Notes under the pieces: generated by a model
Told to the model about the DNA's origin: nothing
Databases searched by the model: none
The model's input: the letters and a program-made list of their open reading frames with translations, nothing else
Part shown: positions 18,699 through 61,093 of the stretch, in pieces
How the letters are laid out: each line of letters starts with the position of its first letter
Position numbering within the stretch: position 1 is the stretch's first letter
NCBI GenBank assembly: GCA_003194525.1
Contig: NBIV01000065.1
Location: forward strand, 186,001 to 250,000
From: Gracilariopsis chorda
Lineage: Eukaryota; Rhodophyta; Florideophyceae; Gracilariales; Gracilariaceae
Length of the DNA stretch: 64,000 nt
Direction of reading: 5' to 3'
Translations under genes and position numbers: made by a program

Positions 18699-18774
18699 TA
18701 TCCCCCTCCTTAGTCCGGAAAGCCACCGCGAACGGGAGCGAATTCCAGCGGAAAATGGGTGATATAATTCCAAT

Positions 18775-20605: not shown

Positions 20606-22070
20606 TCTCTTTCTCAGGCCTAGCCAGTAATGTAGATTAGCATCACACAGAAGCACGGGGCGCCTGAGTGAACTTTCCCGTGCAGAACGGAGTTTTCTTC
20701 TTCCCTAACGCCCTTGACGCAGTCTATACAAAAGAGATTGAACTTCTCCTTTCCGACCTTCCACGACTTGCAGGCGTTTTTAATCCTCCTGGGCGTTGCA
20801 CAGCATAGCTTGGTTTGTGGTACCAGCACTGCCGTGATATTGGACCACCTTTGAACGAGGGAGAAGTTCGATGTTTTCCACAGTGTCCCAGCTTGGGTCA
20901 TATGCGTACCAACCAACTCGGTATCTTGGAATATATTCCTGATTTCAGTTGAGTCCAACGATTCGTTCAATAAACAAACCCTTCTTTGTATACGTGACTG
21001 CGTTGCCATTTTATAATGACTTCGCTTGTCAGTGGTTGCCCGTGGGATGAGATATTTTCGCTCAGAGGTGCGTCAGGATGCAACCTTGCTTCTCGCTGAG
21101 GACACGGCCCAGAGTGCAGAATAATATCCGCCAAGAGGTTTTCTTCGTGGAACGGTTGCCGCATAACGCGGTAAATATATCGTACCGCTAGTTTTCGGGG
21201 GTCCTCTGTCCCAGATTGACGGTATTCCAGTCGAACCGTGAGCTTGCGGGCATCTTGCTGCTTTGGCGGAGTTGTGGAGGTCATTCTCTAGTGGGGCTTT
21301 CCACGTTGCGTGGTGACTGGTGTGGGGTGCGCAATCTCCATGCGTTCATGTGACTCCCACGGCATGTGGTTCTGAAACGCCTACCTGCGCTTTGCCTCCC
21401 TTGGCATTTACCTTGCACTGTCAGGCTGCACCGTGCACTGCTGTGTTGGCACACAGTATCCGGCGGGTACTTCCGGGGCCCCGGTGTGTTGCATCAAACT
21501 CCCTGATGGGAGTGTACAGCTGGCGCCGTGGCCACCCTGCTGTCCGTAGACTTTGACTTTATTTGAGGTTTCATGTCTTCCTCAAGGGGTGCATCATCCT
21601 GTACGACCAGTTTAATTCTGGCGACAACACCTGCTTTTTCCGAGACGCTCGGTATATTACCCCTACTGCGCGGAGACTTCAGCACTTCGACCTCCGAATT
21701 TGAAATACAATTCCCGTTATGAACGGTTCTCAATTCCGGGGCTGTAGAGCCAGGGTCTTGAGTTGCAAGAGGTGCATTCCTTCTTTTCTCCCTCAAGAGG
21801 GTCTTTTCACTTTCCAGAGTTACTGGTTTTCCAACGTGTGCGTTGCCCACTACCAGCGGTATGGATGGTGCTGAGGAATCCGTTTTGGTGGGAAATTCCG
21901 TCGACGACGGTTGTCCGACTACACCCCGGGGAGGGGTCTGTGAAATGATATCGCGATCCTGATTCAGGGAATTGCCCTGGCTCAGGGATATAGACTGTGG
22001 GTTCGGTCCACTCTCCCGTATCATACGGTGTAACTGCGTCGTTCCCAAACCCTGTGTGGGGGATTGCACG
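20606..22070 (-). pseudogene. Linker and chromodomain region of C1 (fossil)
   Basis: It corresponds to 52250-54067 of C2. A 191-residue proline- and serine-rich frame sits at 21494-22069. A degraded match to the C2 chromodomain (TELVGTHMTQAGTLWK..., against DRLVGHTWDQDGILQYR in C2) sits near 20920-20860. Assignment rests on position and similarity to C2. Confidence 0.6.
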
Positions 22071-22299
22071 GCTTCATCGACCTTTCATGTTCCACGGTGA
22101 GGTTCAATATTACTTTTTCGTATTTCACGGCTCAAATCTCGTGGCGACGGTATTATCTTTCCACACTAGCGATAGGTGTTCTCTCCCTCCTTAGACGGAG
22201 CAAGGGGAGTAGCAGTAGAGTATCCCACATGGCGGGTGTGTATGTGTGTGCCGAAGTGGCCTTATTATTAGGAGTAGAGAAAGGTCCGTTTGGACATGA

Positions 22300-25200
22300 G
22301 TGATTTGGTCGAGCCGGGGTCTCCGACAATGTCAGTAAATCTTAGAGGCCCCAAGTAGGGTATGATAAAGTAGTCGGTTCATTTCGTCCGGGGATTTCGG
22401 GCACGACTGAGTCCATAGAGACGGGTTTCCCTGTATCTAGGAAGACCTCAGACGTGGAAGAACGGACAGTTTTGACACTATTGCGAGAAATAGGATCGTG
22501 TGACTTGCGCATTTCAACTACCAGAGCGTCGGACTTAACGTACACCTCTCTACATGGTCCATTCGCCACAGGCGAAAGCATGTGACGCTTCTCCCTTTCC
22601 GGGTTATAATATTCCTTGCGTACAAAGACGTTGGTACTTGCCCGTATGCAGGGAGCATTTAATCGTAAAAGAGCGTCAAAATCCCGCATGTACACGGCTT
22701 GTGCGCGTTGCATAGACTTTAGCGCTGTGTGGACCAGTTCAGTAAGCCATTGCTTTCATTAACGGGTGTAGCGACCAACAGATGGGAAATTGTCCAAAGT
22801 GGCTTGGTATTCTAATAATACAGACGGCGGTGAACGAGATAGAACCAATTCGAACGGTGACACTCTGGTAGTCCAGTGAATTCGCGTATTTTTTGCAAAA
22901 TTTTGAGCATCTGCATACAAGTCCCAAGTTATGGAGTGATCAGCAACGTAGGAACGGAGAGAGGCGAACAAAGTCCGGTTGAATCGTTAGAATTGCCCAT
23001 TACAACGTGGATGGTAGGTAGTCTTGAACACGTTCTTTACGTCCAGGATGCGACAAAAATCCTGGAAGAACTTGGACGCAAGCTGCCGTCCGTTATCGGA
23101 GAGCACCTCCACAGGAGGACCGTAGAAAAATATCTAGTGTGTGTCACCAGAATCTGGGCCACCGTAAAAGCGGTTATGCTCCGAAGAAAGACAGTCCGAA
23201 CAAGCTTTGAAAAGCGATCGGTGATCACCAGTAAGAACTTGTTGCCTCTCTTTTTAGTGAGGAGAGGTCCGAGGATATCGATTATGATAAACTAGAGTGG
23301 CGCCCTAGTACGGAACAAATTCATTTTCTTCGCGTTCCTGCGGAGCTTCACGCAGTTCTTCGAACATTCGATACAAAACTGCACAGTTTTGTAGCACTCA
23401 ATCGCCATGGCGAGCCACTAAAAAGCCCTTCGCAGGGTGAGGTAGAGCTTCCTCCCACCTACGTGGCCACCGAGCTCCACATAGTGCGAGAGATGTAACA
23501 CCCGCGACTGCAGGGTGTAAGGTACCACAATCTTTGGGGGAGCTTCGACCAAACGAACGAGGTAGTTTTTATCGCTCACCTCGAAAAAGAGGTCTTCACC
23601 ACCGTTGAAACGTGCACAAATCCTCATACAGAAGGGATCACCGAAATTTTCTCTGATCAATTCCTCCAGTAAAACCGGTACAAAACGTCCCAGTAAGGGG
23701 TTCTCAGGGGTTTTGCGGGATGCGAATAAGCTGTCAAATTCAGCATCTTCATTCCAGCCTTCCGGCCATTCCTCGAACTTCCACTCCGGGTCATCCGGTT
23801 CTTCAGCCATAAAAAATGAAATGTCGTCATCCTCCGTTGGGATTGCTTCCCAATGTGTTGGTAAACCCGACAAAGCGTCGGCCTGGGTGTTTAGCGCACA
23901 GTTTTTATGTATGAATTGGAAGTCATATTTCGCAAGGCGGATTCTCCAGCGCATGAGGCAGCCCTAGGGATCGGATACGTTCATTAACCAGGTCAACGAG
24001 GGATGCTCGGTGTATACGGTTAAATGAACTACCATAAGATAAGGGCGTAGGGTGTAAGGCGCTCACATGACGGCGAGACACTTTTTCTCCGACACAGAGG
24101 AATTCCGCTCGTGGAAATTGAGCAAGCGTGACCAATAACCAATTGGCCTTCGGTCCCCCTCTGGGGTGGTTTGGAAAAGATCAAAACCAACTTCGAAATC
24201 ATTGGAGTCCGTGTCCACGGAGTACGGGAGTGCCACTTTGGGTACAGATAAGATAGATGCTGACGTGACAGCCTCCTTTAAGTAGTTAAACGCTTCCAAT
24301 GGCTCGGGCGTAAATGGCCCCAAGTTTGTGGGATTTCCTTTGCGTAACAACGTGTTAAAAGGTGCCGCAATATCCGAATACTTCAGGATAAACAGTCAGT
24401 AGACATTCACAAGGTCCAAGAAGGAGTGGAGTTCCGTTTGAGTTTGGGATTCCTTGGCCTCAACGAGGGACTTGAATCGAGCCTTCTTGATAATTAACCG
24501 TTCCGGACGTATGATATGCCCCAGATACTTGACTTGATCGGTTTAAAACTCGCACTTCGTCAACTTGGGGGTAGTTTCCGCATCACGAAGCACGGTCATA
24601 ACGTCCCTGAGATAGGTGAGATGGTCGCCCAAACTATTGGAGAGGATGATAATATTATCCAGGTAGACCAGACAGCTCCACCACTTGAAGCGGTTCAATA
24701 CAATATCTATAGCACGCTGGAAGGCAGCGGGAGCGTTTCTCAAACCTAAGTGCATCTGCTTGAAGTGGTACGACCATCCGTGGCAGGTGAACGCAGTTTT
24801 ATCACGATCCTTCTGTCTAACAGGAACCTGGCAATAACGCCATTTGGCGTCTAAAGCCGTGAACCCAATAGCGTCTCCAAGAAAGTCGATGTCCTCGCCC
24901 ATACAAAGGATGCCATATGTCTCCCTAACGGTCACAGCATTGAGCAGGCGATATTCTACACAGAACCTCCCAGTTCCGTTGGCCTTCAAAACCAGTATAA
25001 CTGGCGATGCCCAGGGTTATTGAGCAGGCTCTATCACACCTGCGTGGAGTATTTTGTTTACTTGGTACTGCTCCTGTTCCCGAGCTTTCGATCGTGCCCT
25101 GTAAGGGGGTTGTGCCATCTGACGTGTACCCGAAAACAACTCTATCCGGTGTTCTGTTGCATTAATCTGGGCGAAAGTGCAGTCCCACATCGTGGTAAGT

Positions 25201-26380
25201 TCAAATTGCATTGCACGGAGTTTGTCGCAGTGTGACTCCGTAACATGGCCGAGGTCTATATATTCGAATTCCTTTATGGGGTTCAATAGGTTAGAACGCG
25301 CTGTAGCATTGTACTGTGGTACAACTGTGGCCGTTGATTCCGAGCTATTCGGGGTATTCGACCCTATAACAACGATTTCCGCTCCCTCCTTTGACGATAC
25401 AACGTCAGTGACGGGCATGGCTTTCTCAGACGAAGTGGCGATTTCGAGAACGTCGGCGGTCGTCACCTTTGTTGGGAGCATTCCAAGGAATTGTGGAGTG
25501 ACGCTTCCTATTACTTGCTTCTTTACCTGATACTGGGGTCGTTGGCCTAGATTTGCAACTAGTATCCCGAAAGGAGCATACGGAGTAGCGTGAACAATTT
25601 CGTTCGCCAGCGTGAGCTGTTATTTCTCGTATAACGAGGACAGAGGTTAAATAACCCGAAAAACTTGTTGATGGCAGTTGGTTTGCATTCAGCCTTAGAA
25701 CTCACGTGGTATAGAAACCAAGGCTGCGACTCGAAGTTTGATAGACTCACAAGACGTGGGCATTGGTTCCTGCCTAGTAGGTAATGGGACTTGCTTCTGT
25801 GAAGCACGCGTCAGCGTGCGACGGACGATCGGGACTGACGATCAGTCGTCGAGGTCCACACGCCTAAGGCAGGGCCTGATTGCGTCGAAAATCTGTAGCA
25901 GTAGTCACATCCCAGTATGACTGGAGCGGCCAAAGACCGACAAACAACAAAGTTGAGCTTCACCACGGATGTGCCAAACCGCACGACTAAGTAGACGGTA
26001 CCTACCGTTTATAACGGAGTATTGCTCGCATCTGGGACGTCTGACCCCGTTTCAGAACGTATACGAGACTGCACCTGTGGGGATAGCAATGAGTCCAGGA
26101 TGATGTTGGTGCCTGAAACTGTGTCGAGGACTGTCAGAAATCTCACCATAAAATGGGTATCAAGGTCAATGTCGGCATAAAATTTGTAGTTGCGCTTGGC
26201 TTTGGCCAAGACTCTATCCGGGATCCGGCGGTTTTTAATCCGTATCCACGGGCGGCGCAGCACAGAAAGGTGTGCAGAGTCCGCGGCTGCGGTGTCTTTC
26301 CTTGAAAGGATTTTCACCGAGAAGCGAGGTGGCAACGCCTTGGGCGTCAACAGCCTTATCTCTGAGGAGGCCTCTCCCAA
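22300..26380 (-). pseudogene. pol region of C1 (fossil)
   Basis: It begins with MGEASSEIRLLTPKALPPRF (26380), matching the C2 pol start MGEASSRTRLLAPEASSPRY. Protease, RT (FCVEYRLLNAVTVRETYGI near 24960; SCLVYLDNIIILS near 24690), RNase H (VDTDSNDFEVGFDLF near 24220) and integrase parts (about 23500-22340) follow in Ty3/gypsy order. Broken many times. Confidence 0.8.
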
Positions 26381-26399
26381 AGCGGAGACTCCTTCACTT

Positions 26400-28440
26400 A
26401 GTTTTAATGGGAGGTTCCCACCGTAGGCAGTAGTCCAGGATCCTTGAAATTGAGAGCTTTGTTCTGGGAGCCATAGTTTTTATCCGCATAAGCAGTGGTT
26501 GCGTCAGATGTTTGCGCGACTTCCCGATTTAAGGTAGTTGAAGCTAGCCATGCATGCAGAACATTTGGCAAGGGATGAAAGAAGTCCGTTTTAGCACGGA
26601 GGGAGGACGCCGTCGGACTGGAAGGTTTCTCCTCTGGAGTGAGGGCCTCGTAATTTGCAACCACCTTGGCCTTATCCGTCAGTGAGCAAAGACACTAAGG
26701 AGATGTATGTCCATGGGTGTACCAAAGGTGGCAAATCAGAGCCAACACGGTGATGCGCTGGTTAATATTCCGAGCATTGGAGAAGCATACCACAGGGCAA
26801 GTATCATTCCAACCACGCTGTTGATAACGGGATTGACCGTTCATGAACGGTAGTCGTGGTGGAAGAACGCAAATGTTCCCCACGTACAATACGGGATTGT
26901 CTCGCGCCGTTTCGAACACTTCCTCCGTCGTTGACGGTACGTCCGTGGTTGGTATTGACAAACCATCTGCTTATCATAAATGAACGGTGTCGTATCCCTG
27001 TTGGAGGGTTTTATCCGCTAAAGGCAAGGGCGATGATGAATTGCTCTCCAGCAACAACGTTTTGGCGGGCTTAGACCGATGATTCGGGGTTCTTGCATGA
27101 AGTGCTTCCCCTTCCGCTCGATTGTGTTGAACAAGGTTGAGGTAGGTGATCTTTCTGTTGTCCTTGTAGTAACGAGTGACAAGAATCCGAATTGCCGGGT
27201 CAAGGCCATCGAGGAACCTGATACATCGATCCCCTGTGGGCTATACATTCTCACAACTTTGGAAGGCCTTGTTAAAGCGCAGCGAGTAATCAGTTAAAGT
27301 CTCGCCTGAGCGCTGACGAGTATATCACAACACGAGGATGGCGGCTCCCTGAATGAGGGTATTGGTGGCATAGGAGCGCAATAAATATTGCGCAGCCTCC
27401 GGCCACCATGTTACTCCTCCCTATGAGGCACGGGATGATCCCCTGACAAAAGTTTACTGATCCTTTGCCACTCCCCGTAAGAAATACGGTAATGACAAAT
27501 AGGCTTGTCTCTCATTCATTCCGAGAATATCAGCTTCCACTACAAAGCTCAAAAAAAAGTCCAACACCATAATTGGGTCTTCTTCAGTAAAATAATGGTT
27601 ACGCATTTAGACTTGCATAGCTTTTATAAACTCTTTCACGTTTTCACTGCCACGGGGTGTACGTCCTAAGCAGGAATCTTCGAGCCGGTAGTACTGCTAT
27701 GACAATAATTTCTGATACAATGGGTTCGTTGGTTTTAATTCCCTGAGGCCAGGGTGTCTTCTCGCCTTGCTGCGGGTACAAATCGCACCTTAGGTGGCGG
27801 ATGGTCGCTAAGAGTGAGAAGAACGGCCTCGGTTCTCGCCCTCTGATTCGGATTACGAGGAACTAGAACCATCTGAACGGTTTTGGGATAAATGCAATGA
27901 TGTCGTAGAATCAGAATCCGAGTGATCTCGTTTGTGTTTCCGCTTTTAGCGGCGCTTCTTTCTTCCACCGTGCTGGTCGTGTTGTGACGCACCTGGTGCC
28001 GGATCATCCGAGGACGGTTCATGCATGACCATAAACTGCTCTAACGTCTTCAGAGGGGCACGAAATCGATCGAATCGAGAGTCAACTCTTTCTATAAGGG
28101 TGGCCGGTTGCCTCAAACTCTCTAACATAGAGTTGAAATCAGACCGTAAGATAGGGAGATCCTCTGTGACCACCATTGTAGAAGTGTCCACCACCACCTC
28201 ACGGAGGGTTTGTAATTCCCCCAAAAGGGTGTCATGGGCCGTCCATGAAGCGTGAACCTGAAATTCCAGGGAATTCCTTTGGAGGGTGTTATATGTCCGT
28301 CAGACGGGGTTGAGGTGCGGTGGCGGCCACGGCGGGAGCCAGATGAGCACCATCCAAGGCATTCGATAACGCGGTCGACGTGTGATTCCAGGGTTCCTGG
28401 GGTGCGTTTGAAGTCATAGATGAAATCCTCACAGCATGGC
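26400..28440 (-). pseudogene. gag region of C1 (fossil)
   Basis: It corresponds to C2 gag (57980-60157). Recognisable pieces are MGELQTLREVVVDTSTM near 28224 (C2: VGELKSLQEVVSATPV) and LICHLWYTHGHTSP near 26700, the remains of the zinc-knuckle region. Broken many times. Confidence 0.75.
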
Positions 28441-28673
28441 TGGATTTAACTTGAGTCAAAGAAACAAACCGAACTTCGGGATTATCTCCATCATTGTGGG
28501 AGCGGCTGCACATGATTGCAGGCTGTGCAGAGGAGGTCCTCCTCAACAACAGGGCCAAACTATACAATGGGAAAACAAGGGAACTGTCAAAAAACCAAAC
28601 CAAACAAACAAAACCACGAAAGAAAGAACCAAACACAAACCAATTCTGGGTCTTATAGGTCTAGAAACAACTT

Positions 28674-29470
28674 TGTAGTGCAATGACCGGAAACGGGAGG
28701 GCACCGAATGTTTTTCGAGGTTTTTCCTCGTTAGACTTGAGCCCAGCTGGGTAGAGCCCTCCCAGGGGTGGCACTACTATGTCGTGTTGTAGGGCAGAGG
28801 CCACCCGTCGCGAATTGCGCAGGGAGGTTGAGACAAGAATCAGGTATCTGCAGGAGTGGTGTGTGGCGGTCATCATACTTTACAGAGGTGAGGTTTCTAC
28901 GTTAGTGGCACGCGCGAACACGAGCTGTGGGTAGCGGCAAAGCCACCCTGTAAAGAGAAAAGGAAAGGGGGAGCTGAGTCACGAGTGTCGTGAAGGATAC
29001 TAACGGCCGTGCCGGTAAATAAACCTTATACAAGGCGAACAGCAAGACAGTTGGAATAAGAATCCGAACACTCAGGTCCTTTATATAGGCAAGGGGGTTA
29101 GACTTTCCGTATGCTACGTTGCTTCCATCCGAAAAGGAATACAGAACACACGAAGGCGGTGAGGTCTACAGCCAATTCTCTAGATTGTGGTCCCCTGTTG
29201 GGGAATGTTTACTGGTGCGACGGCAATTCACTGGCACACTAAATACTAAACATCCCAGACATCGGTGTGAAAATAATAAATAGAATTAACTTATCTACTC
29301 TACTTTGGTGTTTTATGCCCACTATTGTGCCCAATTGCCAATTCACTCTTCCGTTTTCCACGTTTCAAATCCACTATTAGTGGTCTTAGTTCATGCAATG
29401 ACTACAATACCGAAACATTCCGGAAATCCACCAAGTACCAAGAATCCCTCCCTGAGGGCATTGCACTTCA
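28674..29470 (-). repeat. 5' LTR of chromovirus C1
   Basis: 797-bp partner of 17900-18698. The internal flank ('ccaattctgggtc' near 28640) corresponds to the primer-binding-site side of C2 but is eroded. Confidence 0.9.
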
Positions 29471-30109
29471 TTCTGATTGTCATGTACGACCTGCACTGTT
29501 GCAGGCGCGGTAGCCAGGGTAGTTTTCTACTTATTTCTAATTTTATTAGGAATAGTGGGCGGCCCACAGTACTTACGGCGACGCCGACACTGTCCCGGGA
29601 AAGGAAAAAGCAAGAACCACCTTGGAAGTGGCCGCCCATCCTCACTTGGGGAGTCCCATCAACTTGACGTCGTGGAGCCCTGCTTTTTGGGACCCTTACC
29701 AGATCTGCAGACTGCAGTTCGCTCGGGGATAACTCCTCTCTCTCGCTGGCAGTAGCGTCTCTTTCGCGTCCCTATAGGAGTGAACCCCCGTCTCGTGTGG
29801 ACAACCACCTCTTCTGTCCGGCAACTGTGCTCTCGCCCACTTATCCGTCCATCCGGCGATACGACATTGTGTCCTCACGCATCTGCTGGGCCTCACGCTC
29901 TTGTCGATCCCTCAATCTCTAGGACCGTGGCCTGCAAGGTCACGCACGGTCTCTGCGGTGTTTGTTTTGTGATCATCCCTCCCGAAAGGTTGCTACAGTC
30001 CTTAGTGGGATACCACAGCCATTTCCTGACCTGTAAACGTACAACCTATGAACCGTCGTCCACTGCTTGAATCCCAGCCGAACTACTGCTGTGTGTAAAA
30101 GGGACCCCC
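29471..30109. other. Unassigned stretch between C1 and copia E
   Basis: No supported gene, RNA or repeat. Open frames on both strands (for example 29780-30070) have no motif and overlap each other. It may be DNA that followed B2 before C1 arrived. Confidence 0.4.
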
Positions 30110-49769: not shown

Positions 49770-50012
49770 TTGCTTCCTACTGTCTTCTCAATTGACGTTC
49801 TCATGATATGGTTTCAACAAGGATACATGAAAGTTAGGATGAATTTGTTCCAACTCCTTTGGTAATTCTACTTCATAGACTCTGGATTCTGCGAATACTT
49901 TTTTAACTAAGTAAGGTCCTAAAAACTTGGGAGATAGCTTTTTTACCTGACCAGACTTTAAGTTTAAATTTGGCGTAACCAGGAGTACTTCATCTCCTTC
50001 TTTGAAGACTTG

Positions 50013-51318: not shown

Positions 51319-51323
51319 CCTTG

Positions 51324-52150
51324 TGTGGTGCAATGCCCCAAAGGGGAAAAACACCGAAAGACGTTCGGGATCTTCCTCTCACGAGGTGAACCCAGTTGGG
51401 TAGAGCCCTCCCAGAGGTGTCACGGCGAAGCCGGTTTGTAAGACCAGGGACACCTGTCGTGACTCGCGCAGGGAGGTGAAGGCGAAGAATCGGTATCCGC
51501 GTGAGCGGGGTGTGATCCTCAGTAGAGGTATGTTTCCACGTAAGTGGGGAAGTGTGAGCGGATGCGCACACGAGGGCCGCGGATAGCGGGAGGCGCTACC
51601 CTAAAAAGGGGGGAAAGGAAGGGCGAAGAGGAGGAAGAGAGGACGATGCGAGTCGCGAGAGCGACGAGCAGATACGGCAATGCCAGTGGACAGGACTCCC
51701 TATACAGGGCGAAACACCAATATGATTGGAACAATTATACTCCCAGTGATGGGTTTCTTTAGATGTGCAAGGGGGTTAGATGTCCCGTGGTTTACGGCGT
51801 TTCCCTCCAAGGAGGAGTAGAGTACGCGCGCAAGCGGCAACAACTAGAGCCAATTCCCCAGGTTGGGGTCCCTTGTTGGGGAAGGTTTACTGGTGCGACG
51901 GCAGTGCGCCGTCGCACTAAGTACTAGCTTCCCAGAAATGGGTGTGAAAATAATAAATAATATTAACTAAAATACTCCACATTTCGTGGCAACATCCACT
52001 ACTGTGGCCAACCGCCAATTGACCCAAAACTGTGTCCCACGTGTCCATACCCACCATAGTGGGGTGTAGTTCATATACACACTACACAACCGATAATATC
52101 GGGAAAACGATCAAGTACCAAGAATCCCTCCCTGAGGGCGTTGCACTACA
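51324..52150 (-). repeat. 3' LTR of chromovirus C2
   Basis: 827 bp, matching 60262-61088 at about 98%. The internal side is the polypurine tract, seen on the plus strand as TTATCCCCCCC (52151-52161). It contains a 10-bp-stem inverted repeat, GTGCGACGGC with GCCGTCGCAC, near 51894-51918. Confidence 0.97.
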
Positions 52151-52406
52151 TTATCCCCCCCGAAGACGGGAAAACGACCGCAGACGCGGAGGGTTTCCAG
52201 ACGAAAATGGGTGATAAAAGCGCGTACGCCGTCTCCGGTTCTTCTTTCCTGGCATAGCCGGCTATTGTAGTATAGTGTTGTGGGGAGCTAGCTGCTCCCT
52301 TGAATAAACTTTCCCGTTTTGAACGGTGATTCTCGTTTGAGTTCCCCGTCTTCGACGGACCTTGCCTTGTTATCCTTTCCTTTTGCTCTCCGCTCGCACG
52401 GCAACG

Positions 52407-53036
52407 TTACCCAACTTGGGCATTAACCAGCGTGGCTGGGGCTGCAGTCCCCGTTTGACGGTGGTATCGCAGGACCTGCGACCGTGAGAGGTGTTCAATT
52501 GGTTCCCACGTATCCCCACTGGGGTCGTACCCGTACCAGCGGACGCGGTATTGTAGAATACCATCCTGGTCCCAGGTGTGTCCGACAAGTCGGTCTACTA
52601 CGAATTCTCGTTCGTAGACCTGCCGGCCGTGCCGGGTGGTGGTTGTAATCCCTGGCGAGGGTTGCCCGCGGTGCGGTATAATGTCCTTTAGCAGGGTGTT
52701 CGGCGATAACTCCGTCGTTGCCATGCGCTGTGATAGCGGCCGCTGCTCATGCGGGAATATATCCCTCAAGAGGGTGTGTGGTGCCACGGTTTTCACCGGC
52801 AAGTCATTCCCCATTGGGGTAGGTTCACTTCCGCTTTCGCGGTAATGCGGGCGGACCGCCAGTCGGTGGGGGACTTGGACTCCGCCTTCGCGGTTGAGCT
52901 CACGAACCGCGAGTTTGCGGGAAGATGACCGCTCCTGCGGGATCGGCATTTCCACAATCCCCTGGGGGGTCCCGTGCGACACGGTGATTGGGTGGCAAAC
53001 AGCCTCCCTGCCAGGCGCACAAGCGCTCTGCACCAT
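52407..53036 (-). CDS. C2 chromodomain-bearing 3' frame (209 residues)
   Basis: The first 130 residues are basic and low in complexity. A chromodomain follows at about residues 140-195: EFVVDRLVGHTWDQDGILQY, then RVRWYGYDPSGDTWEPIEHL, with the aromatic-cage-type W and Y positions. A chromodomain at the pol C-terminus defines chromoviruses. Here it lies about 1 kb beyond the integrase end, farther than usual. Confidence 0.8.
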   Translation of the reverse strand: MVQSACAPGREAVCHPITVSHGTPQGIVEMPIPQERSSSRKLAVRELNREGGVQVPHRLAVRPHYRESGSEPTPMGNDLPVKTVAPHTLLRDIFPHEQRPLSQRMATTELSPNTLLKDIIPHRGQPSPGITTTTRHGRQVYEREFVVDRLVGHTWDQDGILQYRVRWYGYDPSGDTWEPIEHLSRSQVLRYHRQTGTAAPATLVNAQVG

Positions 53037-53086
53037 ACGTTCCGGCGATGCCGTGGTGTCCCCGGCTACTGACGGGTTGCCTGGGG

Positions 53087-54067
53087 CTAACTCCGGTACA
53101 CCGGTATTTTGGTCAAAATTCCCCTTTGGGGGTGCCGGGCAGGTGCCGATAACACCCTTTTCAGGGGAATTGCCGCTAAGCGTGGTGCACCATCTCCATG
53201 AGGAGGAGCAGCGTCCGGGATGACCGGTTTCGAGCGTGCGATGGCGCGCGTTTTTCCCGAATTCCTCGGTTCTTCGCCGCAGCGATGCGAGAGTTGGCGC
53301 AAATTATTTCCCGTAGCGGGGGCTTTGATTCCGTCAACGACGGGAGGCGTTTCTGGTGCTTGCGAGCCAGGGCTTAAAGCTTCGACTGCGGCTTGGCTGC
53401 CTTTCTCCCCAAGAGGGGTGTGGGTATTTCCCTGTGAGGCCGGCGTATCTGGGCGCCTCTTCTCCGCAAGGCACGGGTCTGATTGACCTGATTGAACTGC
53501 TTCCGCGGGGACTTCCGCCAACGGCGGCTTCGAGGCATCGGGCGATTGCCTTTCCGCTGCTGCGGTATTGGAGTGAGGCTTCTCGTTTTCCCGTGACAAA
53601 CGGTGTATTTGCCGCTTTTTCGGGGCCTGCGCGTCTGGTTCCTGTTTCACAGCACTGCCCGGGAACAGGGAATTAGTGTCGCGTGACATACTCCGTGCTC
53701 CACGGTCAGTGTTCCGTATGTTACGGTGTGTTTCCCGTTGCGACGGCGATATCGTTCCTCGAAAACGAGCGTTCTCCTCGCCCTCCTTAGACGGAGCGGT
53801 GGGATAAGGGATAACATTCCCCGCCTGGCGGGTATAGATGTGCGCCAGTGGGGCGGACGTGGTAGGGGCGGGCGCTGAGGGGCCCGAATTACCCGGCTGA
53901 GCCAGTGAGTCCGACAGAGTCGGCAGGTCTGAGAGTCCCCGGCTGGGGTTTGGTAGTACCGTAAGTCTAGTACTCTTGGATGGTTCCGGTGTTCCAGAGT
54001 CCGTAGAAACGGGGTTGCCAGGATCCAGGACTACCTCTGACGAGGGAGGAGGGCAAGGACAACACAA
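53087..54067 (-). CDS. C2 disordered linker frame (326 residues)
   Basis: A P/S/A/R-rich frame between pol and the chromodomain frame, overlapping the pol end by 37 bp. It has no predicted fold by eye and no recognised domain. A corresponding low-complexity frame exists in C1 (21494-22069), so this region belongs to the family rather than being unique to C2. It may be translated as part of a longer Pol by read-through, or be a separate protein; the sequence alone does not decide. Confidence 0.55.
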   Translation of the reverse strand: MCCPCPPPSSEVVLDPGNPVSTDSGTPEPSKSTRLTVLPNPSRGLSDLPTLSDSLAQPGNSGPSAPAPTTSAPLAHIYTRQAGNVIPYPTAPSKEGEENARFRGTISPSQRETHRNIRNTDRGARSMSRDTNSLFPGSAVKQEPDAQAPKKRQIHRLSRENEKPHSNTAAAERQSPDASKPPLAEVPAEAVQSGQSDPCLAEKRRPDTPASQGNTHTPLGEKGSQAAVEALSPGSQAPETPPVVDGIKAPATGNNLRQLSHRCGEEPRNSGKTRAIARSKPVIPDAAPPHGDGAPRLAAIPLKRVLSAPARHPQRGILTKIPVYRS

Positions 54068-57000
54068 TCACGGGAAATCCGTTCGTGCGTGTCCCCCATC
54101 TCTACCACGACAGTGTCGGTGTTAACAGAGATGACCTTGAAGGGTCCATCCGCCACAGGCGAGAGTTTGTGACGCTTCTCCCGTTCCGAGTTGTAGTATT
54201 CCTTCCTGATGAAGACGTAGTTATTTGCCCGAATTGGGGATGGTTTCCCTCGCAAGCGAGCGTCAAAATCCCGCTTGTAAGCGGCTTGGGCCCGTGCCAT
54301 AGACTTCCGCGCAGCGGGGACCAGCTTGGAAAGCCATTGCTTCCATTTCTGCCGGTAGATACCCACAGATGGGAAATTGTCCAAGGTAGCTTGGGGTTCC
54401 AGCGCCACAGGCGGGGGTGTTCTAGATAGAACCAACCCGAATGGCGAAACTCCGGTAGTCTGGTGTACCTGCGTATTGTACGCGTAGGTTACCGCATCAG
54501 CGTACATGTCCCAGTTCGTTGGGTGGTCAGCGACGTAGGAACGTAACGCCGCGAGTAACGTCCGGTTAAACCGTTCAACTTGCCCATTACACTGGGGGTT
54601 ATAGGTAGTCGTGAACAAGTTCTTGACATCCAGGATGCGACAAACATCCTGGAAGAACTTGCTCACGAACTGTTTCCCGTTGTCAGAGAGCACCTCCACA
54701 GGGGGACCGTAGACAAAAATCCAGTGCGTCACCAGAGCCTGGGCCACCGTGAGAGCGGTTATCCTCCGAAGAGGGACAGTACGTACCAGCTTAGAAAAGC
54801 AATCATTGATGACAAGTAGGAACTTGTTTCCACGTTTCGTGGTGAGTAGTGGTCCGAGAAGATCAATTGCGATAAACTCGAGTGGCGCCCTTGCGGGGAA
54901 TAGTTTCATCTTCTTTGCATTTTTGCGGAGTTTGACGCGATTCTTCGCGCATTCGCTACAAAACCGCACGGTTGTGTAGCAATCCACCGCCATTGCGGGC
55001 CAATAGAAATCCCTTTGCAGGGTTAGGTAGAGTTTCCTCCCACCTGGGTGACCTCCAATGGGGTCGTAGTGTGATAGATGTAACACCCGCGATTGCATGG
55101 AATGTGGTACCACAATCTGTGGGCGGGCTTCGACCTTTCTTACGAGGTAGCCTTTGTCGTTCACCCCGAAAGGGAGATCTTCACCACTGTTGATACGGGC
55201 ACGAATTCTCGTACAGAATGGGTCGCCGAATTGTTCTCGGATCATTTCTTCCGGTGATACCGGTACAAAGTTTCCCGGTAACGGGTTCTCAGATTTATCT
55301 CGCGATGCGAGTAGTTCGTCAAAATCAGCATCCTCGTCCCAGTTTTCTGGCCTAGCCTCGACGGCATATTCCGGATCATCCGGGTCTATAGCCATGAAAC
55401 ATGGGGCTTCATCATCCTCCGTTGGGAGTGCTTCCCCACTTGTGGGTAACCGCGACAAAGCATCGGCCTGGGTGTTCTGCGCGCCCTTTTTATAAATGAC
55501 TTGAAAGTCATATTCCGGGAGGCGGAGTCTCCAGCGCATGAGGCGTCCCGACGGGTCGGAGATATTCATCAACCACCTCAATGAGGAATGATCCGTATAC
55601 ACGGTGAAATGAATTCCCATAAGGTAGGGGCGCAGAGTGGTCATCGCCCATACGACGGCGAGGCACTCTTTCTCCGATACGGAGTAGTTCCGCTCATGAA
55701 CATTGAGCGAGCACGACCAATAACCAATTGGATGTCGTTCCCCCTCGGGGGTGGTTTGAAAAAGAGCACACCGGACTTGGTAGTCGGTCGAGTCCGTATC
55801 TACGGAGTATGGCAACTCAAGTTTTGGGAGATGTAGGATTGGTGCTGATGTGAAAGCCTCCTTCAAGGAGTTGAAGGCTTCCGATTGCTCGGGCGTAAAT
55901 GTTCGCAGTTTTGGGGGGTTCCCCTTTCGCAACAACGCGTTCAGGGCCGCTGCAGTATCCGAAAAGTTCGGGATAAACCGTCGATAGACGTTGAACAGCC
56001 CGAGGAAGGAGCGCAGTTCCGTTTGAGTACGGGGTTCTTTCGCCTCAACGAGGGATTTGACTCGAGCTTTCTCGATCGCTAACCGTCCAGGACGGATAAT
56101 GTGACCCAAATACTTCACAGTATCTATGAACAACTTGCATTTTCTCAACTTGAGAGTAATTCCCGCATCGCGGAGTACGGTCAGCACGTCTCGGACGTGA
56201 GTGAGATGTTCGTCCAACGAGTTGGAGAAGATGTTAATATCATCAAGGTAGACCAAACAACTCCGCCACTTAAAGCGGTTGAGTAGAATATCTACTGCAC
56301 GCTGAAAGGTGGCGGGGACGTTGGTTAACCCAAATGGCATCCGCTTGAAGCGGTAGGTTCCTGCATGGCAGGTGAATGCGGTTTTGTCGCAATCTTCCTG
56401 TCTGACAGGTAATTGCCAATATCCCCAATTGGCATCAAGGTCCGTGAACACGGTGGCGTCTCCAAGGGAGTCAATGCACTCGTCCATACGAGGGATGGGG
56501 TACGTGTCCCTAACAGTCACGGCATTGAGCCGGCGGTAGTCGACACAGAACCTCCAGGTTCCGTCAGCCTTTGAAGCCAGTACAACTGGGAATGCCCAGG
56601 GTGATTGAGCAGGCTCAATCACACCTGCGCGGATCATCTTTTCCACTTGGGACTGCTCCTCTTCCCGAGCTTCCGGACCTGCCCTGTAAGGGGGTTGTGC
56701 AACCGGTCGCGCACCGGGGATTAAATCGATCCGGTGTTTCGTTGCATTAATCTCGCCAAGCAAGCCATCCCACATTGTGGTGAATTCCCGTAACATAGTA
56801 CGGAGTTTGTCACGGTGCGACTCTGGAACGTGGCTGAAGTCCAGCGCTTCAAGTGCTTTTTCCGGATCAATCCGGTCGTTGCTCGATAGAGCATTGTCCT
56901 GTGGAACAGTTGTGGTTCGCAATTTCGAGTTACTCGGTATGTTCGACGCTAAAGTAGCGGTTTCCTCCGCCTCCTCAGACTTGACGTCTTCGGACGGCGG

Positions 57001-57966
57001 GGAGAACTCCTCAGAAGAGGTGGTAACTCCGAGTAGATCGGAGGCTGTCATCTTTGTGGGCAGCATTCCCATAGGATGGGGGGTTACACTCCCAAATACT
57101 TGGTGTTTGACCAGATACTGGGGGTGTTTGCCAAGGTTGGCAACCAATATCCGAAAAGGGACATCCGGGGAAATGGAGACAATTCCATTAGCCAGCACTA
57201 GCTGGGATTTCTCGTACGACGAGACGAGGGTTTGTATAACCTGAAGACCGTGTTGACGGGAATTTACCTGCACCCAGACCTGGGACTCAGGCAGTATAGA
57301 AACCGAGGCAGCAACGCGGAGCTTGGTGGATTCGCGGGACGCGAGCGGTGGTTCCTGCGCAGCAGGGAGCGGAACTTGTTTCCGAGAGGACCGCTTTAGT
57401 GGGCGGCGAACAATCGGAACCGACGATCCATCGTCAAGTTCTACACGCCTGAGGCGGGGTCTGATTGCGTCGACAAATCTGTCGCAGTAATCACATTGCA
57501 GTATGAATGGTGCTGCCAATGAACGGCAAACGATGAAGTCAAACTTCACCACAGAGGTACCAAGTCTCACGACGAGGTCCACTGTGCCCACCGTTTGTAA
57601 CGGATTGTTGTTCGCATCCGAAATGTCGGGGACCACGTCAGAGTGGATACGAGACCGCACAAGCGTGTGTAATAATGATTCCACAACAAAGTTGGGGCCT
57701 GCACCTGTATCCAGGACGGTGAGAAACCTCACCATAAACTGGGGATCAAGGCCAAGGTCGGCATAGACCTTATAATTGCGTTTGGCCAAGACCAAGACTC
57801 TACCGGGAATCCGGGGATTTTTACTCCGTATCCACTGGCGACGCAACACACCGAGGTGCGCAGAGTCCGCGTCAGCGGTGTCTTTCCTCGAGAGGACTTT
57901 CACCGGGTAGCGAGGCGAGGATGCCTCGGGCGCCAAAAGCCTGGTTCTTGAGGAAGCCTCTCCCAA
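54031..57966 (-). CDS. pol: C2 pol: protease, RT, RNase H, integrase (1311 residues)
   Basis: Protease shows LTVLDTGAGPNFV at about residue 84. RT shows RFCVDYRRLNAVTVRDTYPI, FTDLDANWGYWQL and CLVYLDDINIFS. RNase H shows VDTDSTDYQVRCALF and YSVSEKECLAVVWAM. Integrase has the H2C2 zinc domain (HLSHYDPIGGHPGGRKLYLT, then CSECAKNR) and a core with D in FIAIDLLGPLL, D in EVLSDNGKQFVSKFF and E in PQCNGQVERFNRTLL. The product would be the enzymes of reverse transcription and integration. It starts 13 bp after the gag stop in a different frame and is uninterrupted along its length. Confidence 0.92.
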   Translation of the reverse strand: MGEASSRTRLLAPEASSPRYPVKVLSRKDTADADSAHLGVLRRQWIRSKNPRIPGRVLVLAKRNYKVYADLGLDPQFMVRFLTVLDTGAGPNFVVESLLHTLVRSRIHSDVVPDISDANNNPLQTVGTVDLVVRLGTSVVKFDFIVCRSLAAPFILQCDYCDRFVDAIRPRLRRVELDDGSSVPIVRRPLKRSSRKQVPLPAAQEPPLASRESTKLRVAASVSILPESQVWVQVNSRQHGLQVIQTLVSSYEKSQLVLANGIVSISPDVPFRILVANLGKHPQYLVKHQVFGSVTPHPMGMLPTKMTASDLLGVTTSSEEFSPPSEDVKSEEAEETATLASNIPSNSKLRTTTVPQDNALSSNDRIDPEKALEALDFSHVPESHRDKLRTMLREFTTMWDGLLGEINATKHRIDLIPGARPVAQPPYRAGPEAREEEQSQVEKMIRAGVIEPAQSPWAFPVVLASKADGTWRFCVDYRRLNAVTVRDTYPIPRMDECIDSLGDATVFTDLDANWGYWQLPVRQEDCDKTAFTCHAGTYRFKRMPFGLTNVPATFQRAVDILLNRFKWRSCLVYLDDINIFSNSLDEHLTHVRDVLTVLRDAGITLKLRKCKLFIDTVKYLGHIIRPGRLAIEKARVKSLVEAKEPRTQTELRSFLGLFNVYRRFIPNFSDTAAALNALLRKGNPPKLRTFTPEQSEAFNSLKEAFTSAPILHLPKLELPYSVDTDSTDYQVRCALFQTTPEGERHPIGYWSCSLNVHERNYSVSEKECLAVVWAMTTLRPYLMGIHFTVYTDHSSLRWLMNISDPSGRLMRWRLRLPEYDFQVIYKKGAQNTQADALSRLPTSGEALPTEDDEAPCFMAIDPDDPEYAVEARPENWDEDADFDELLASRDKSENPLPGNFVPVSPEEMIREQFGDPFCTRIRARINSGEDLPFGVNDKGYLVRKVEARPQIVVPHSMQSRVLHLSHYDPIGGHPGGRKLYLTLQRDFYWPAMAVDCYTTVRFCSECAKNRVKLRKNAKKMKLFPARAPLEFIAIDLLGPLLTTKRGNKFLLVINDCFSKLVRTVPLRRITALTVAQALVTHWIFVYGPPVEVLSDNGKQFVSKFFQDVCRILDVKNLFTTTYNPQCNGQVERFNRTLLAALRSYVADHPTNWDMYADAVTYAYNTQVHQTTGVSPFGLVLSRTPPPVALEPQATLDNFPSVGIYRQKWKQWLSKLVPAARKSMARAQAAYKRDFDARLRGKPSPIRANNYVFIRKEYYNSEREKRHKLSPVADGPFKVISVNTDTVVVEMGDTHERISRDCVVLALLPRQR

Positions 57967-57979
57967 AGGGGAGACTCCC

Positions 57980-60157
57980 TCAGTTAGTTTTCTGCCTTCG
58001 GTGGTGGGTTGGTTTCCTCGACAACGAGTGCTTCATCCCGTTGACGGGGGCTTCTATCCGCATAAGCGGGGTTGCGACGGATGGTTGCGTGATCTCCCGA
58101 ATCGGGGTGTATGAATCTTGCCGCGCACGCGGGGTCTGTGGTAGGGCGTGAGAAAAGTCCGTTTTAGCACGGAGGTAGGAAGCCGTCGGGACGGGACGTT
58201 TCTCCTCTGGAGTGAGGGCCTCATAATTTACCACTACCTTGGCCATATCCTTCAGTGAACAAATACACTGAGGTGAGGTATGGCCATGGGTATAGCACAG
58301 GTGGCATATGAGAGCCAACACCGCGACACGCGGATTATTATTCCGAGTATCGGAGAAGCGAACCGCAGGGCGGGTGTCAGTCCATCCAGGCCGTTGATAA
58401 CGGGATTGACCGTTTGAAAACGGGAGTCGTTGGGGTTGAACCCGACTGTTACCACCGTATAGAACGGGATCTTCTGTTCCCGTATCATGGGTCATCTCCG
58501 TCGTTGACGGCAAATCACTGGTGGTTATCGACACACCATTCCCCTGCACTAAATGCATGGTATCAAATCCCTGTCCAGGGTTCCCATCCGTGGTGAGCGG
58601 GAGAGAGGAAGATTCGCTTTCCAGCAACAACGCCTTGGCGGAGTTAGACCGATTGTTCGGAGTTCTTGCACGAAGTGCATCCCCTTCCGCTCGGGCGTGT
58701 TGGACCAGCTCGAGGTAGGTGATCCTCCGCTTGTCCTCCCGATACCGGGTAACTAAACTCCGGATTGCCGGGTCAAGACCATCAATGAACATGGTACTGC
58801 GCTCCCCAGCGGGGTATACGTTACCACATCTGTGGAAAGCCTTGTTAAGGCGCACCGAGTAATCGGTCTCGGTCTCTCCAGCACGCTGGCGTGTATCTCG
58901 CAAAGCGAGGATAGCCTGCTGAATAGCGGTGTTGGTGGCGTAGGAGCGCAGAAGATACTGCACAGCCTCCGGCCAGCAAGTAACTCCTCCCTCGGAGGCG
59001 CAAGAAGATCCTCTGACAGAGGTGTATTGGTCCTCCGCCACTCCCCGTAAGAAATACGGTAAAGCCAAATAGGCTTGTCCCTCATTCATACCTAGGATAT
59101 CGGCCTCCGCTACAAAGCGGGATAGGAAATCCAGTAAGAGGACTGGGTCCTCTCCAGTAAAATACTGGTTGCGGAGCGAAAGCTGCATTCGCTTAATGCA
59201 TTCTCGCACCTTTCCCGTACCACGGGGCGTACGCCCAAGTGACGAGTCTTCGAGCCGGTAGTACCGGTATGATAAAAGCTTCCGGTAGTCCGGGTTCGTC
59301 GGTTTCAATTCCCGGAGACCGGGGTGTCTTCTCCCCTTCTGGCGGGTTCGCACCACACCTTCAGTGGCCGATGACCGCCTCGAGCGGGAGGAGTAGCCTC
59401 GCTTTTCGTCCTCCGAGTCGGAGTCCGAGGAGCTCGAGCTAAATGAATGGTTTCGGGATGAGTCCAGCGATGTCGAAGAACCGGAGTCCGAATATTTTCG
59501 GTGGTGTTTCCGTCGATGACGGCGTTTCTTCTTCCCAGCAAGCTGGTCGTTGTGCGATGCCTCGTTTACCGGATCACCCGGGGATGGTTTGTCCATGAGG
59601 ACGAACTGCTCCAGCGTCTCCAGTCGGGCACCAATCCGATCAAATCGGGCTTCAACTCCTTCGATGAAGGCGGCGGGTTGTCCCAAACTCTCCAACACGG
59701 AGTTGACGTCAGACCGTAAAATACGGAGTTCCTCGGCGACCTCCTTTACGGGGGTTGCCGAGACCACCTCTTGGAGGGATTTTAGTTCCCCTACAAGGGT
59801 GTCATGGGCGGTCCACAGAGCGCGGACCTGGGATTCCAGGGAAGTCCCCTGGGGGGTTTTATCGCCCGTTCCACGGGGGCTTGAAGCCGCGACAGCGGGA
59901 GCAGGCCGGGGTGCCTGGGGCACTGCGGCAACAGCCGGAGTCAATGCTGCATTCCCCTGCGGGGGTGATAACGAGGGCAAAAGGAGGTTCCGGGGTTCCC
60001 GGTCGGGGGTATCCTTCCGCGATGAAGCGGCACCAGCACGGCTGGAACTTGTCCGTATAGGGATGCGGGGTACGAACCGAACTTCGGAAGTGTCGGCGTT
60101 GTCGCGGGAGCGACTACGCGTCACAACTGGCTCCGCATCCGAGGGATTTCTCGACAT
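57980..60157 (-). CDS. gag: C2 gag (725 residues)
   Basis: The N-terminal third is disordered (S/R/P-rich), followed by a helical stretch (LRILRSDVNSVLESLGQPAA), a charged K/H/S-rich tract, and a retrotransposon-gag-type domain at about residues 320-480 (VLLLDFLSRFVAEADILGMN; LRDTRQRAGETETDYSVRLN). A zinc knuckle HLCYTHGHTSPQC (CX2CX4HX4C) lies near residue 630. It is expected to form the particle and bind RNA. It is longer than most Ty3/gypsy Gags, mainly because of the disordered N-terminus. Confidence 0.9.
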   Translation of the reverse strand: MSRNPSDAEPVVTRSRSRDNADTSEVRFVPRIPIRTSSSRAGAASSRKDTPDREPRNLLLPSLSPPQGNAALTPAVAAVPQAPRPAPAVAASSPRGTGDKTPQGTSLESQVRALWTAHDTLVGELKSLQEVVSATPVKEVAEELRILRSDVNSVLESLGQPAAFIEGVEARFDRIGARLETLEQFVLMDKPSPGDPVNEASHNDQLAGKKKRRHRRKHHRKYSDSGSSTSLDSSRNHSFSSSSSDSDSEDEKRGYSSRSRRSSATEGVVRTRQKGRRHPGLRELKPTNPDYRKLLSYRYYRLEDSSLGRTPRGTGKVRECIKRMQLSLRNQYFTGEDPVLLLDFLSRFVAEADILGMNEGQAYLALPYFLRGVAEDQYTSVRGSSCASEGGVTCWPEAVQYLLRSYATNTAIQQAILALRDTRQRAGETETDYSVRLNKAFHRCGNVYPAGERSTMFIDGLDPAIRSLVTRYREDKRRITYLELVQHARAEGDALRARTPNNRSNSAKALLLESESSSLPLTTDGNPGQGFDTMHLVQGNGVSITTSDLPSTTEMTHDTGTEDPVLYGGNSRVQPQRLPFSNGQSRYQRPGWTDTRPAVRFSDTRNNNPRVAVLALICHLCYTHGHTSPQCICSLKDMAKVVVNYEALTPEEKRPVPTASYLRAKTDFSHALPQTPRARQDSYTPIREITQPSVATPLMRIEAPVNGMKHSLSRKPTHHRRQKTN

Positions 60158-60242
60158 GAGAAAATAACGTAACGACGGGAACGATCACTGAACTTCCGGT
60201 AAATAAAAACAAACCTCGTAAGAGGGAAAACAAAAACCAATT

Positions 60243-60258
60243 CTAGGTCGGGAGACCA
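60243..60258 (-). other. Primer-binding site of C2
   Basis: On the minus strand, three bases after the 5' LTR, the sequence reads TGGTCTCCCGACCTAG. It begins TGG, complementary to a tRNA CCA end. The plus-strand reading is compatible with a tRNA 3' end (acceptor stem plus part of the T arm); the tRNA was not identified. Confidence 0.65.
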
Positions 60259-60261
60259 CTT

Positions 60262-61088
60262 TGTGGTGCAATGCTCCAAAGGGGAAAAACACCGAAAGAC
60301 GTTCGGGATCTTCCTCTCACGAGGTGAACCCAGTTGGGTAGAGCCCTCCCAGAGGTGTCACCGCGAAGCCCGTTTGTAAGACCAGGGACACCTGTCGCGA
60401 CTCGCGCAGGGAGGTGAAGGCGAAGAATTGGTATCCGCGTGAGCGGGGTGTGATCCTCAGTAGAGGTATGTTTCCACGTAAGTGGGGAAGTGTGAGCGGA
60501 TGCGCACACGAGGGCCGCGGATAGCGGGAGGCGCTACCCTAAAAAGGGGGGAAAGGAAGGGCGAAGAGGAGGAAGAGAGGACGATGCGAGTTGCGAGAGC
60601 GACGAGCAGATACGGCAATGCCAGTGGACAGGACTCCCTATACAGGGCGAAACACCAATATGATTGGAACAATTATACTCCCAGTGATGGGTTTCTTTAG
60701 ATGTGCAAGGGGGTTAGATGTCCCGTGGTTTACGGCGTTTCCCTCCAAGGAGGAGTAGAGTACGCGCGCAAGCGGCAACAAGTAGAGCCAATTCCCCAGG
60801 TTGGGGTCCCTTGTTGGGGAAGATTTACTGGTGCAACGGCAGTGCGCCGTCGCACTAAGTACTAGCTTCCCAGAAATGGGTGTGAAAATAATAAATAATA
60901 TTAACTAAAATACTCCACATTTCGTGGCAAAATCCGCTACTGTGGCCAACCGCCAATTGACCCAAAACCGTGTCCCACGTGTCCATATCCACCATAGTGG
61001 GGCGTAGTTCATATACACACTACACAACCGATAATATCGGGAAAACGATCAAGTACCAAGAATCCCTCCCTGAGGGCGTTGCACTACA
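60262..61088 (-). repeat. 5' LTR of chromovirus C2
   Basis: 827 bp partner of 51324-52150. The right flank CCTTG (61089-61093) repeats the left flank, completing the target duplication. Confidence 0.97.
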
Positions 61089-61093
61089 CCTTG

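Follow-up and report, generated by a model that had tools for sequence, protein, structure and literature searches.

Why should short perfect inverted repeats fill an entire retrotransposon, its long terminal repeats (LTRs), gag, pol and linker alike? The question is raised by C2, an element of the red alga Gracilariopsis chorda that lies within the 64,000-nucleotide stretch of DNA analysed here (the window; Table 1). The hairpin excess in C2 is real and strong. Perfect stems of at least 4 bp with loops of 3–5 nt number 420, against 121.3 ± 12.3 in 1000 dinucleotide shuffles (maximum 171), and are divided among loops of 3, 4 and 5 nt as 137, 145 and 138 (about 41 per loop length over 200 dinucleotide shuffles, z 14–16). 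Stems of at least 5 bp with a 3-nt loop number 70, compared with 10.4 ± 3.3 in dinucleotide shuffles. A sequence-only reading of the window had described C2 as filled with such hairpins in all of these regions, which reading frame would not explain; both claims are borne out, and its quoted example hairpins are exact in sequence and position (9/9). For gag and pol, the counts of 4-bp stems with loops of 3, 4 or 5 nt and of 5-bp stems with 3-nt loops are above all synonymous-codon shuffles (300 each). The 5-bp stems with 5-nt loops in gag and pol, and with 4-nt loops in gag, are within the range of such shuffles (300 each), and in the two short ORFs of C2 several stem classes merely equal or slightly top the synonymous-shuffle maximum. 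Because the array is also present in the LTRs and the antisense-ORF region, translation is not its reason.

Table 1. Coordinates of C2, its parts and its older relative in the window, with hairpin counts by region
Feature	Position	Strand	Hairpins observed	Hairpins shuffled	Remarks
C2, nested Ty3-type LTR retrotransposon of red alga	51324..61088	.			micro-hairpin array throughout, from hairpin count against shuffles
Target-site duplication CCTTG, left copy	51319..51323	.
Target-site duplication CCTTG, right copy	61089..61093	.
C2 3' LTR	51324..52150	-	37	9.2	TG...CA ends; 98.3% identity with 5' LTR
C2 3' linker and chromodomain			42	12.3
C2 chromodomain ORF, 209 aa	52407..53036	-			PF00385
C2 linker ORF (orf3), 326 aa	53087..54067	-	35	12.0	hairpins counted in 53087-54030
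C2 pol ORF, 1311 aa	54031..57966	-	159	47.9	RT, RNase H, integrase (Pfam)
C2 gag ORF, 725 aa	57980..60157	-	105	27.7	capsid-like fold, basic/serine-rich stretch, CCHC knuckle
C2 5' UTR			2	0.8	only 104 bp, too short to judge
C2 5' LTR	60262..61088	-	35	9.1	pair of 3' LTR
Example hairpin CCGTT-TTG-AACGG	52314..52326	.
Example hairpin CCGGT-GAT-ACCGG	55251..55263	.
Example hairpin CCCGT-TCC-ACGGG	59865..59877	.
C1, older C2 relative, decayed array	17900..29471	-			74% identity over 5.9 kb

Judged from its termini and predicted proteins, C2 is a Ty3/gypsy-type LTR retrotransposon with a chromodomain. Its LTRs, 827 bp in both copies, combine TG...CA ends with a target-site duplication, as in elements of this type, and the gene order, RT, RNase H and integrase with the chromodomain downstream on its own ORF, likewise fits Ty3/gypsy. 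The same holds for a Gag with a capsid-like fold (residues 306–499) and a zinc knuckle; the CCHC knuckle is found in six of the seven gag pieces scanned in the pooled set described below. The Pfam matches of C2 are RVT_1, RT_RNaseH, H2C2, rve and Chromo. No match was obtained for orf3 in Pfam or for positions 51000–61400 in Rfam at the gathering score, and the pol query has no relatives in viral_contigs.

The array is present in 18 of 18 related pieces sampled (1.6–4.4-fold), which were hand-picked and include same-family copies that are not independent; X1–X5 and F, used below, are family labels of this analysis. The array-bearing lineage has one kind of Gag in common. In C1, whose LTR copies are 81.5% alike, 251 hairpins are observed against 137.8 ± 12.4 in shuffles. 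The excess is absent from positions 1–17.9 kb and 29.5–51.3 kb of the window, unrelated retroelements there included, and the 17 host stretches pooled for comparison (170 kb) show none either. These 17 are what is kept of 20 drawn after exclusion of L028, which reads N, and of L011 and L022, in which C-lineage elements lie; L013, L014, L018 and L024 among them hold short C2 matches, and the single stretches L013, L014 and L026 reach 1.22–1.35. Since all related pieces have the array and the unrelated elements within this window do not, it tracks the element lineage, not the whole host.

The unit of the array is a hairpin of 11–13 nt in total, composed of CC on the outer 5′ arm, two to three more pairs, a loop of 3–5 nt and GG opposite. 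This CC/GG foot, a signature absent from the sequence-only reading, is found in families C, F, X1, X2 and X3, is weak in X4 (outermost C 0.31), and is seen neither in the host stretches nor in the RNA of phages MS2 and Qbeta. Stems CCGT, CCGC and CCGA occur 42, 42 and 37 times, against 2.5, 2.6 and 2.1 expected. In the pooled set of seven pieces (C, X1 twice, X2, X3, X4 and F), which was used for this signature analysis and for the mismatch, flank, tetraloop, long-range pairing, knuckle and ladder tests, outer-base identity explains stem enrichment with a log-likelihood gain of 241 (four terms), compared with 38–52 (one term each) for RNA or DNA stacking energy or G+C; on top of the outer bases, stacking energy gains only about 1. 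Selection for stability, attractive at first, was dropped, as outer-base identity accounts for the enrichment. Because the outer bases far outdo energy, a reader is indicated and not stability alone. In the ladder test, a closing pair is present in 81 of 111 cases where the loop inside it has 3 nt, and in 35 of 121, which is chance, where it has 2 nt (p = 2e-11 pooled, 1e-9 for C2 alone, 7e-4 without family C). Pairing therefore ends where the loop would drop below 3 nt, which points to folded single strands rather than to dimer sites. No clear preference for RNA tetraloops is seen, GNRA loops numbering 19 sense and 13 antisense of 258.

Midpoint distances of 18–21 nt are in excess (z 3.6 in C2, 4.3 in L011 and 3.3 in the other families), those of 22–25 nt more weakly so (z 2.1, 1.5 and 1.2), and those of 10–17 nt are in deficit. 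Mean hairpin spacing is about 34 nt and density about 30 per kb. The midpoint spacings of C2, L011 and the other families have no consistent peak at multiples of the preferred distance, and gaps of at least 45 nt are as common as in random placement, with only mild evenness in C and X3. Of the spacing near 19–24 bp that had been proposed, a neighbour preference of about 20 nt survives, whereas its multiples, and a regular unit every 20–24 bp through the element, do not.

Selection maintains the array, not individual sites. Between C and F, third-codon changes affect 22/164 and 15/136 positions in stems, compared with 89/271 and 100/303 in linkers (p = 5e-6 and 6e-7), and are thus about three times rarer in stems; C1 and L022 were left out of these and the following counts between C and F. 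Mutations private to single copies affect stems and linkers equally. The hairpins are constrained while the lineage replicates and decay freely in resident copies. C and F have 35 of 49 and 34 of 44 hairpins in common, and no hairpin column contains a gap in the coding-sequence alignment, from which L004 was left out. Overall, 178 of 767 hairpins are co-located, against 50.0 expected, nearer families sharing many; with the most distant family, X4, the figure is 12 of 195 against 11.9 expected, which is chance. Compensatory double changes between C and F are few (4 and 2), and in the pooled gag families they stand at 0.41, versus 0.35 in control pairs. These covariation results are based on states over several copies, which replaced a first test on C1 alone that was swamped by C1 decay. 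Two earlier suggestions for the origin of the hairpins, tiny insertions and replication slippage, are contradicted: the stems lie in alignable coding sequence without gaps, evolve more slowly than linkers between families, and are hit by private mutations neither more nor less than linkers.

Stem probability is 0.433 on the sense and 0.401 on the antisense strand (difference 0.032, 0.010–0.054), with a reversed, nonsignificant leaning in X3. Flanking A:T is 227:111 in family C, versus 1607:1388 in linkers, and 191:158 in the other families, so that the sense leaning comes mostly from family C. At equilibrium folding, the mean probability of a micro-hairpin is only 0.43, below that in MS2 and Qbeta (0.57). 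In the single-mismatch test for the acting strand, neither G.U nor A.C is in excess, and wobble is unfavoured on the sense strand; this test was dropped as evidence against RNA, as the MS2/Qbeta control is also without G.U excess (GU 1.15, AC 1.54). MFED is 4.2–17.1% sense and 4.4–13.5% antisense in six sequences and −2.1 to 0.7% in two host stretches, values from 120-nt windows with 12 shuffles that are not comparable with the 350-nt scale of the GORS paper. Long-range complementarity is not raised in the elements (C z −2.0) and is raised in host control L020 (z 5.8).

The architecture is reminiscent of several known systems. Coronavirus GORS, according to the available part of one account, comprises hundreds of consecutive local stem-loops across coding sequence with folding energy below shuffles, less diverse paired sites and positions poorly conserved among relatives (PMC7642675). 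Similarly, folding energy in the array elements is below dinucleotide shuffles throughout, and pairing is kept while positions are poorly conserved with respect to X4, if not to the nearer families. The coronavirus structures are described there as interrupted duplexes of varied length, that part naming no base signature (PMC7642675), whereas the C2 lineage has uniform stems of 4–5 bp, loops of 3–5 nt, a length of 11–13 nt and the CC/GG foot. GORS is a property of positive-strand RNA virus genomes, and C2, an LTR retrotransposon, is GORS-like in its working and not a member. In packaging-signal-mediated assembly, dispersed stem-loops with a common motif are thought to be read by capsid protein, as the available part of PMC6281560 describes. 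The CC/GG foot is such a common motif; however, the C2 array is far denser, its signature marks the foot of the stem instead of the loop, and capsid reading is putative here. MS2 and Qbeta RNAs are likewise rich in short local hairpins (4-bp stems 1.8–2.4-fold, loops 3–6) but strongly favour long stems (6 bp: 41 versus 8.4), have 5-bp loop-3 stems at only 2.6-fold versus 7.1 in array elements, and are without the foot. The yeast elements Ty3 and Ty1 are, like C2, LTR retrotransposons whose RNA has structured stretches; their genomic RNA is described as an adenosine-rich mosaic with stable regions of up to 30%, and the available part of the paper mentions no unit array (PMC11381356). A literature search, mostly of open-licence papers, found no comparable array in any retroelement.

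We tentatively favour, at a probability of about 0.4, the reading that the Gag of the element itself recognises its genomic RNA by these distributed hairpins, with both reader and strand putative. Many redundant, individually dispensable hairpins would be recognised by Gag, whose capsid domain, basic/serine-rich stretch and CCHC knuckle may read the CC/GG stem feet at intervals of about 20 nt. Such reading could serve to select and condense the right RNA and to prevent it from forming long duplexes while particles assemble and reverse transcription proceeds. An ordered genomic RNA for packaging or protection had been suggested from sequence; hairpin sterics, third-codon constraint and the single kind of Gag argue for it, and the 19–24 bp register narrows to a preference at short range. 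A dedicated reader would be unnecessary if GORS-like structure were selected generally, which we consider rather unlikely: the array is redundant and positionally free, folding energy is below shuffles on both strands, pairing is local without added long-range complementarity, and GORS transcripts evade cell sensors (PMC3950689, in its available part), but general selection predicts stability and leaves the CC/GG foot unexplained, energy contributes nothing past the outer bases, other retroelements of the window lack the array, and coverage is no more even than random. The lineage could instead have adapted to a protein of the host that binds RNA and serves its export, localisation or translation control. 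Such a reader would suit the base signature and structure equally well; it is unlikely, given host stretches without the array and a site density of about 30 per kb in all regions that would be unusual for such signals.

Single-stranded cDNA during reverse transcription is an improbable acting strand, on which hairpins would protect the cDNA or pace the enzyme. Strictly Watson-Crick pairs, little strand asymmetry outside family C and a slightly better fit of stem choice by DNA than by RNA energies alone (49 versus 38) are consistent with it, but energies add about 1 beyond the outer bases and so do not discriminate, and the weak leaning is toward the sense strand. That perfect hairpins are written by mutation, for example through template switching by reverse transcriptase or snap-back synthesis, is very improbable: fixed feet on perfectly paired stems could be traces of a switch and return point, but writing would speed stems, not slow them, and many hairpins are common to families. 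Dyads for a dimeric DNA-binding protein, for example everted CCG half-sites, are hardly credible; the CCG...CGG symmetry of the enriched stems resembles paired half-sites, but complementarity extends into positions without base preference and ends at the steric limit of the loop, and resident copies decay freely.

With Gag as the candidate reader, it is conceivable, if a little less probable than Gag recognition itself, that the lineage overwrote its genome with about 300 protein-readable micro-hairpins per 10 kb, using mostly synonymous codons where the sequence is coding, as a Gag-read structural code held as density and not as fixed sites. If so, no part of a retroelement, not even its protein genes, is beyond the reach of selection for a dense and uniform secondary-structure code. 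The several families, with their many copies in a single genome, are natural replicates for the study of RNA recognition, condensation and shielding, and strong constraint on the synonymous sites of hairpin-array elements biases comparisons between families.

The micro-hairpin array described in the sequence-only reading is borne out in C2, the chromodomain-containing Ty3-type LTR retrotransposon at 51324..61088. All nine hairpins quoted there are exact, and the claimed density stands well above that of shuffled sequence, with 420 stems (at least 4 bp, loops of 3-5) versus 121.3 +/- 12.3 and a maximum of 171 in 1000 shuffles. Counts are raised over shuffles in both LTRs, gag, pol, the linker ORF, and the chromodomain part, and the main hairpin classes in gag and pol also exceed 300 synonymous-codon shuffles. 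Pooled host stretches (17 pieces, 170 kb) give ratios of 1.01-1.09 for the same classes. C1, an older relative of C2 at 17900..29471, shows the excess, and the rest of the window does not, barring perhaps 61089-64000. C2 inserted into an AT-rich Ty3-type element, and this segment is the 5' side of that host element, with a mild excess (69 versus 44.8 +/- 7.3); the other side, 48601-51323, has none (41 versus 42.6 expected). A Ty3-type element at 43-47.5 kb likewise has no excess (54 versus 58.8).

The repeated unit is small. Stems are mostly 4-5 bp long, with loops of 3, 4, and 5 the commonest; in C2, just 7 of 70 five-bp loop-3 stems extend to 6 bp, and across families 5-bp loop-3 stems are up 7.1-fold and 6-bp stems 2.9-fold. 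The stem foot carries C at both outer 5' positions with G opposite in all families, weakly in the related family X4 (frequency of the outermost C, 0.31; next C, 0.51), a signature with no counterpart in MS2 and Qbeta (0.34) or host (0.25). When stem identity is fitted with a Poisson model, the gain in log units is 241 for outer bases, 52 for G+C, 49 for DNA energy, and 38 for RNA energy, with energies adding about 1 once outer bases are included. Among CC-N-GG frames, the fifth pair occurs in 81/111 cases if a loop of 3 remains versus 35/121 if a loop of 2 would (p 2e-11); the same holds for C2 alone (48/62 versus 20/77) and without its family, C (29/45 versus 13/46). Because the fifth pair follows this steric rule for loops, the sites are folded single strands, and a mere dyad is excluded.

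The proposed spacing of 19-24 bp holds in part. In C2, L011 (a further C-lineage copy in the same genome), and other families, midpoint distances of 18-25 nt are overrepresented and those below 18 nt underrepresented, with no consistent peak at multiples. In L011, gaps of at most 3 nt are half as frequent as under random placement (0.093 versus 0.179), and long gaps match the random frequency.

Genome searches using Gag relatives recovered many further copies, from which 18 pieces were taken (eight X1, one X2, three X3, two X4, one X5, and three C); all 18 are enriched in hairpins, 1.64 to 4.39-fold. In a gag codon alignment, 178 of 767 hairpin centers coincide, far above the shifted expectation of 50.0. 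The eight X4 comparisons are at chance (12/195 versus 11.9), so the X4 array sits at other sites. What is kept is the unit and its density, not the positions.

Selection on stems was assessed in a 1.5-kb alignment of the RT region covering family C (eight sequences) and family F, to which C1 belongs (14 copies). The commonest states of the two disagree at 13.9% of 1485 positions. Of the 49 hairpins defined in C, 35 are fully paired in F as well; in the reverse direction the count is 34 of 44. Third-codon differences number 22/164 and 15/136 in stems, 26/60 and 22/56 in loops, and 89/271 and 100/303 in linkers (stem versus linker, p 5e-6 and 6e-7 by Fisher test). Private substitutions, found in just one F copy each and expected to be mostly post-insertion, are alike in stems and linkers at G/C sites (135/3608 versus 251/6947) and at A/T sites (46/2126 versus 116/6075). 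Because stem third codons diverge more slowly and private substitutions fall evenly, stems are maintained during lineage replication and free to decay in resident copies. The hairpin ratios, over pol 3.5-3.8 in seven other C copies and 3.1 in the C2 piece, and 1.8-2.1 in C1, agree with this. Compensatory double changes between C and F are few (4 and 2); in pooled gag families, both-changed pairs are Watson-Crick in 282/694 (0.41) versus 0.35 in control pairs.

Both strands have folding energies lower than those of shuffles: the difference (MFED) is 4.2-17.1% on the sense strand and 4.4-13.5% on the antisense strand, and near 0 in two host stretches. The sense strand has a slight advantage in stem probability (pooled difference 0.032, 0.010-0.054; family C, 0.052; X3, -0.069, not significant), but its value of 0.43 lies below the 0.57 of MS2 and Qbeta. 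Sense-strand bases flanking family C stems are A in 227 cases versus T in 111 (linkers, 1607 versus 1388), and 191 versus 158 in other families. Wobble pairs show no sense-strand preference in the elements, and likewise none in MS2/Qbeta. Taken together, these results favor RNA only weakly over cDNA as the acting strand. The dispersed hairpins could serve as packaging or condensing sites with the element's Gag as putative reader, since the array tracks a single lineage sharing the same type of Gag, the stem foot has a base signature, and the array is redundant and positionally free, as distributed sites of this kind should be.

The nearest described phenomenon is genome-scale ordered RNA structure (GORS) of positive-strand RNA viruses. 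As outlined in PMC7642675, GORS comprises hundreds of stem-loops with MFED of 7-15% and more, lower diversity at paired sites, and pairings unconserved among relatives; a shielding role is proposed in PMC3950689. C2 resembles GORS in how it works, but it is a retroelement, and its array is built from a single small unit marked by a base signature. MS2 and Qbeta have 4-bp hairpins at 1.8-2.4-fold for loops 3-6 and 6-bp stems in 5-fold excess, without the base signature; phiX174 shows no clear hairpin excess. For yeast Ty3 and Ty1, PMC11381356 portrays the RNAs as mosaics with stable regions of up to 30%. The literature searched, mostly open-licence papers, yielded no comparable array in a retroelement.

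Features of C2, of the related copy L011, and of other repeats in the window
Feature	Position	Strand	Remark
Candidate tRNA primer-binding site, directly inside C2 5' LTR	60242-60261	sense	AAG then TGGTCTCCCGACC
C2 LTR end	51324-51333		TGTGGTGCAA; imperfect 10-bp inverted repeat with next
C2 LTR end	52141-52150		TTGCACTACA
C2 RNase H, integrase, linker, chromodomain	52407-54067		separate ORFs
L011 RNase H, integrase, linker, chromodomain	L011:2527-5772		single open frame
L011 extra region, two ORFs	L011:548-1615, 1688-2335	+	antisense to pol
1.07-kb repeats	41807-42872, 47487-48552		97.7% alike; on both sides of Ty3-type element (43-47.5 kb)
1.07-kb repeat, third copy	35315-36380		87% alike
Inverted pair, ~2.7 kb	286-2941, 12042-14695		76% identical

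C2 is not intact, because the frame that is continuous in L011 is split into ORFs in C2. L011 also has an extra region of ~1.8 kb between the chromodomain and the 3' LTR that C2 lacks; this region also bears the array (73 versus 25.8). Its antisense ORFs have no match in Pfam, and their relatives come from Gracilariopsis chorda and Gracilaria domingensis. Elsewhere in the window, the third copy of the 1.07-kb repeat may be a solo LTR.
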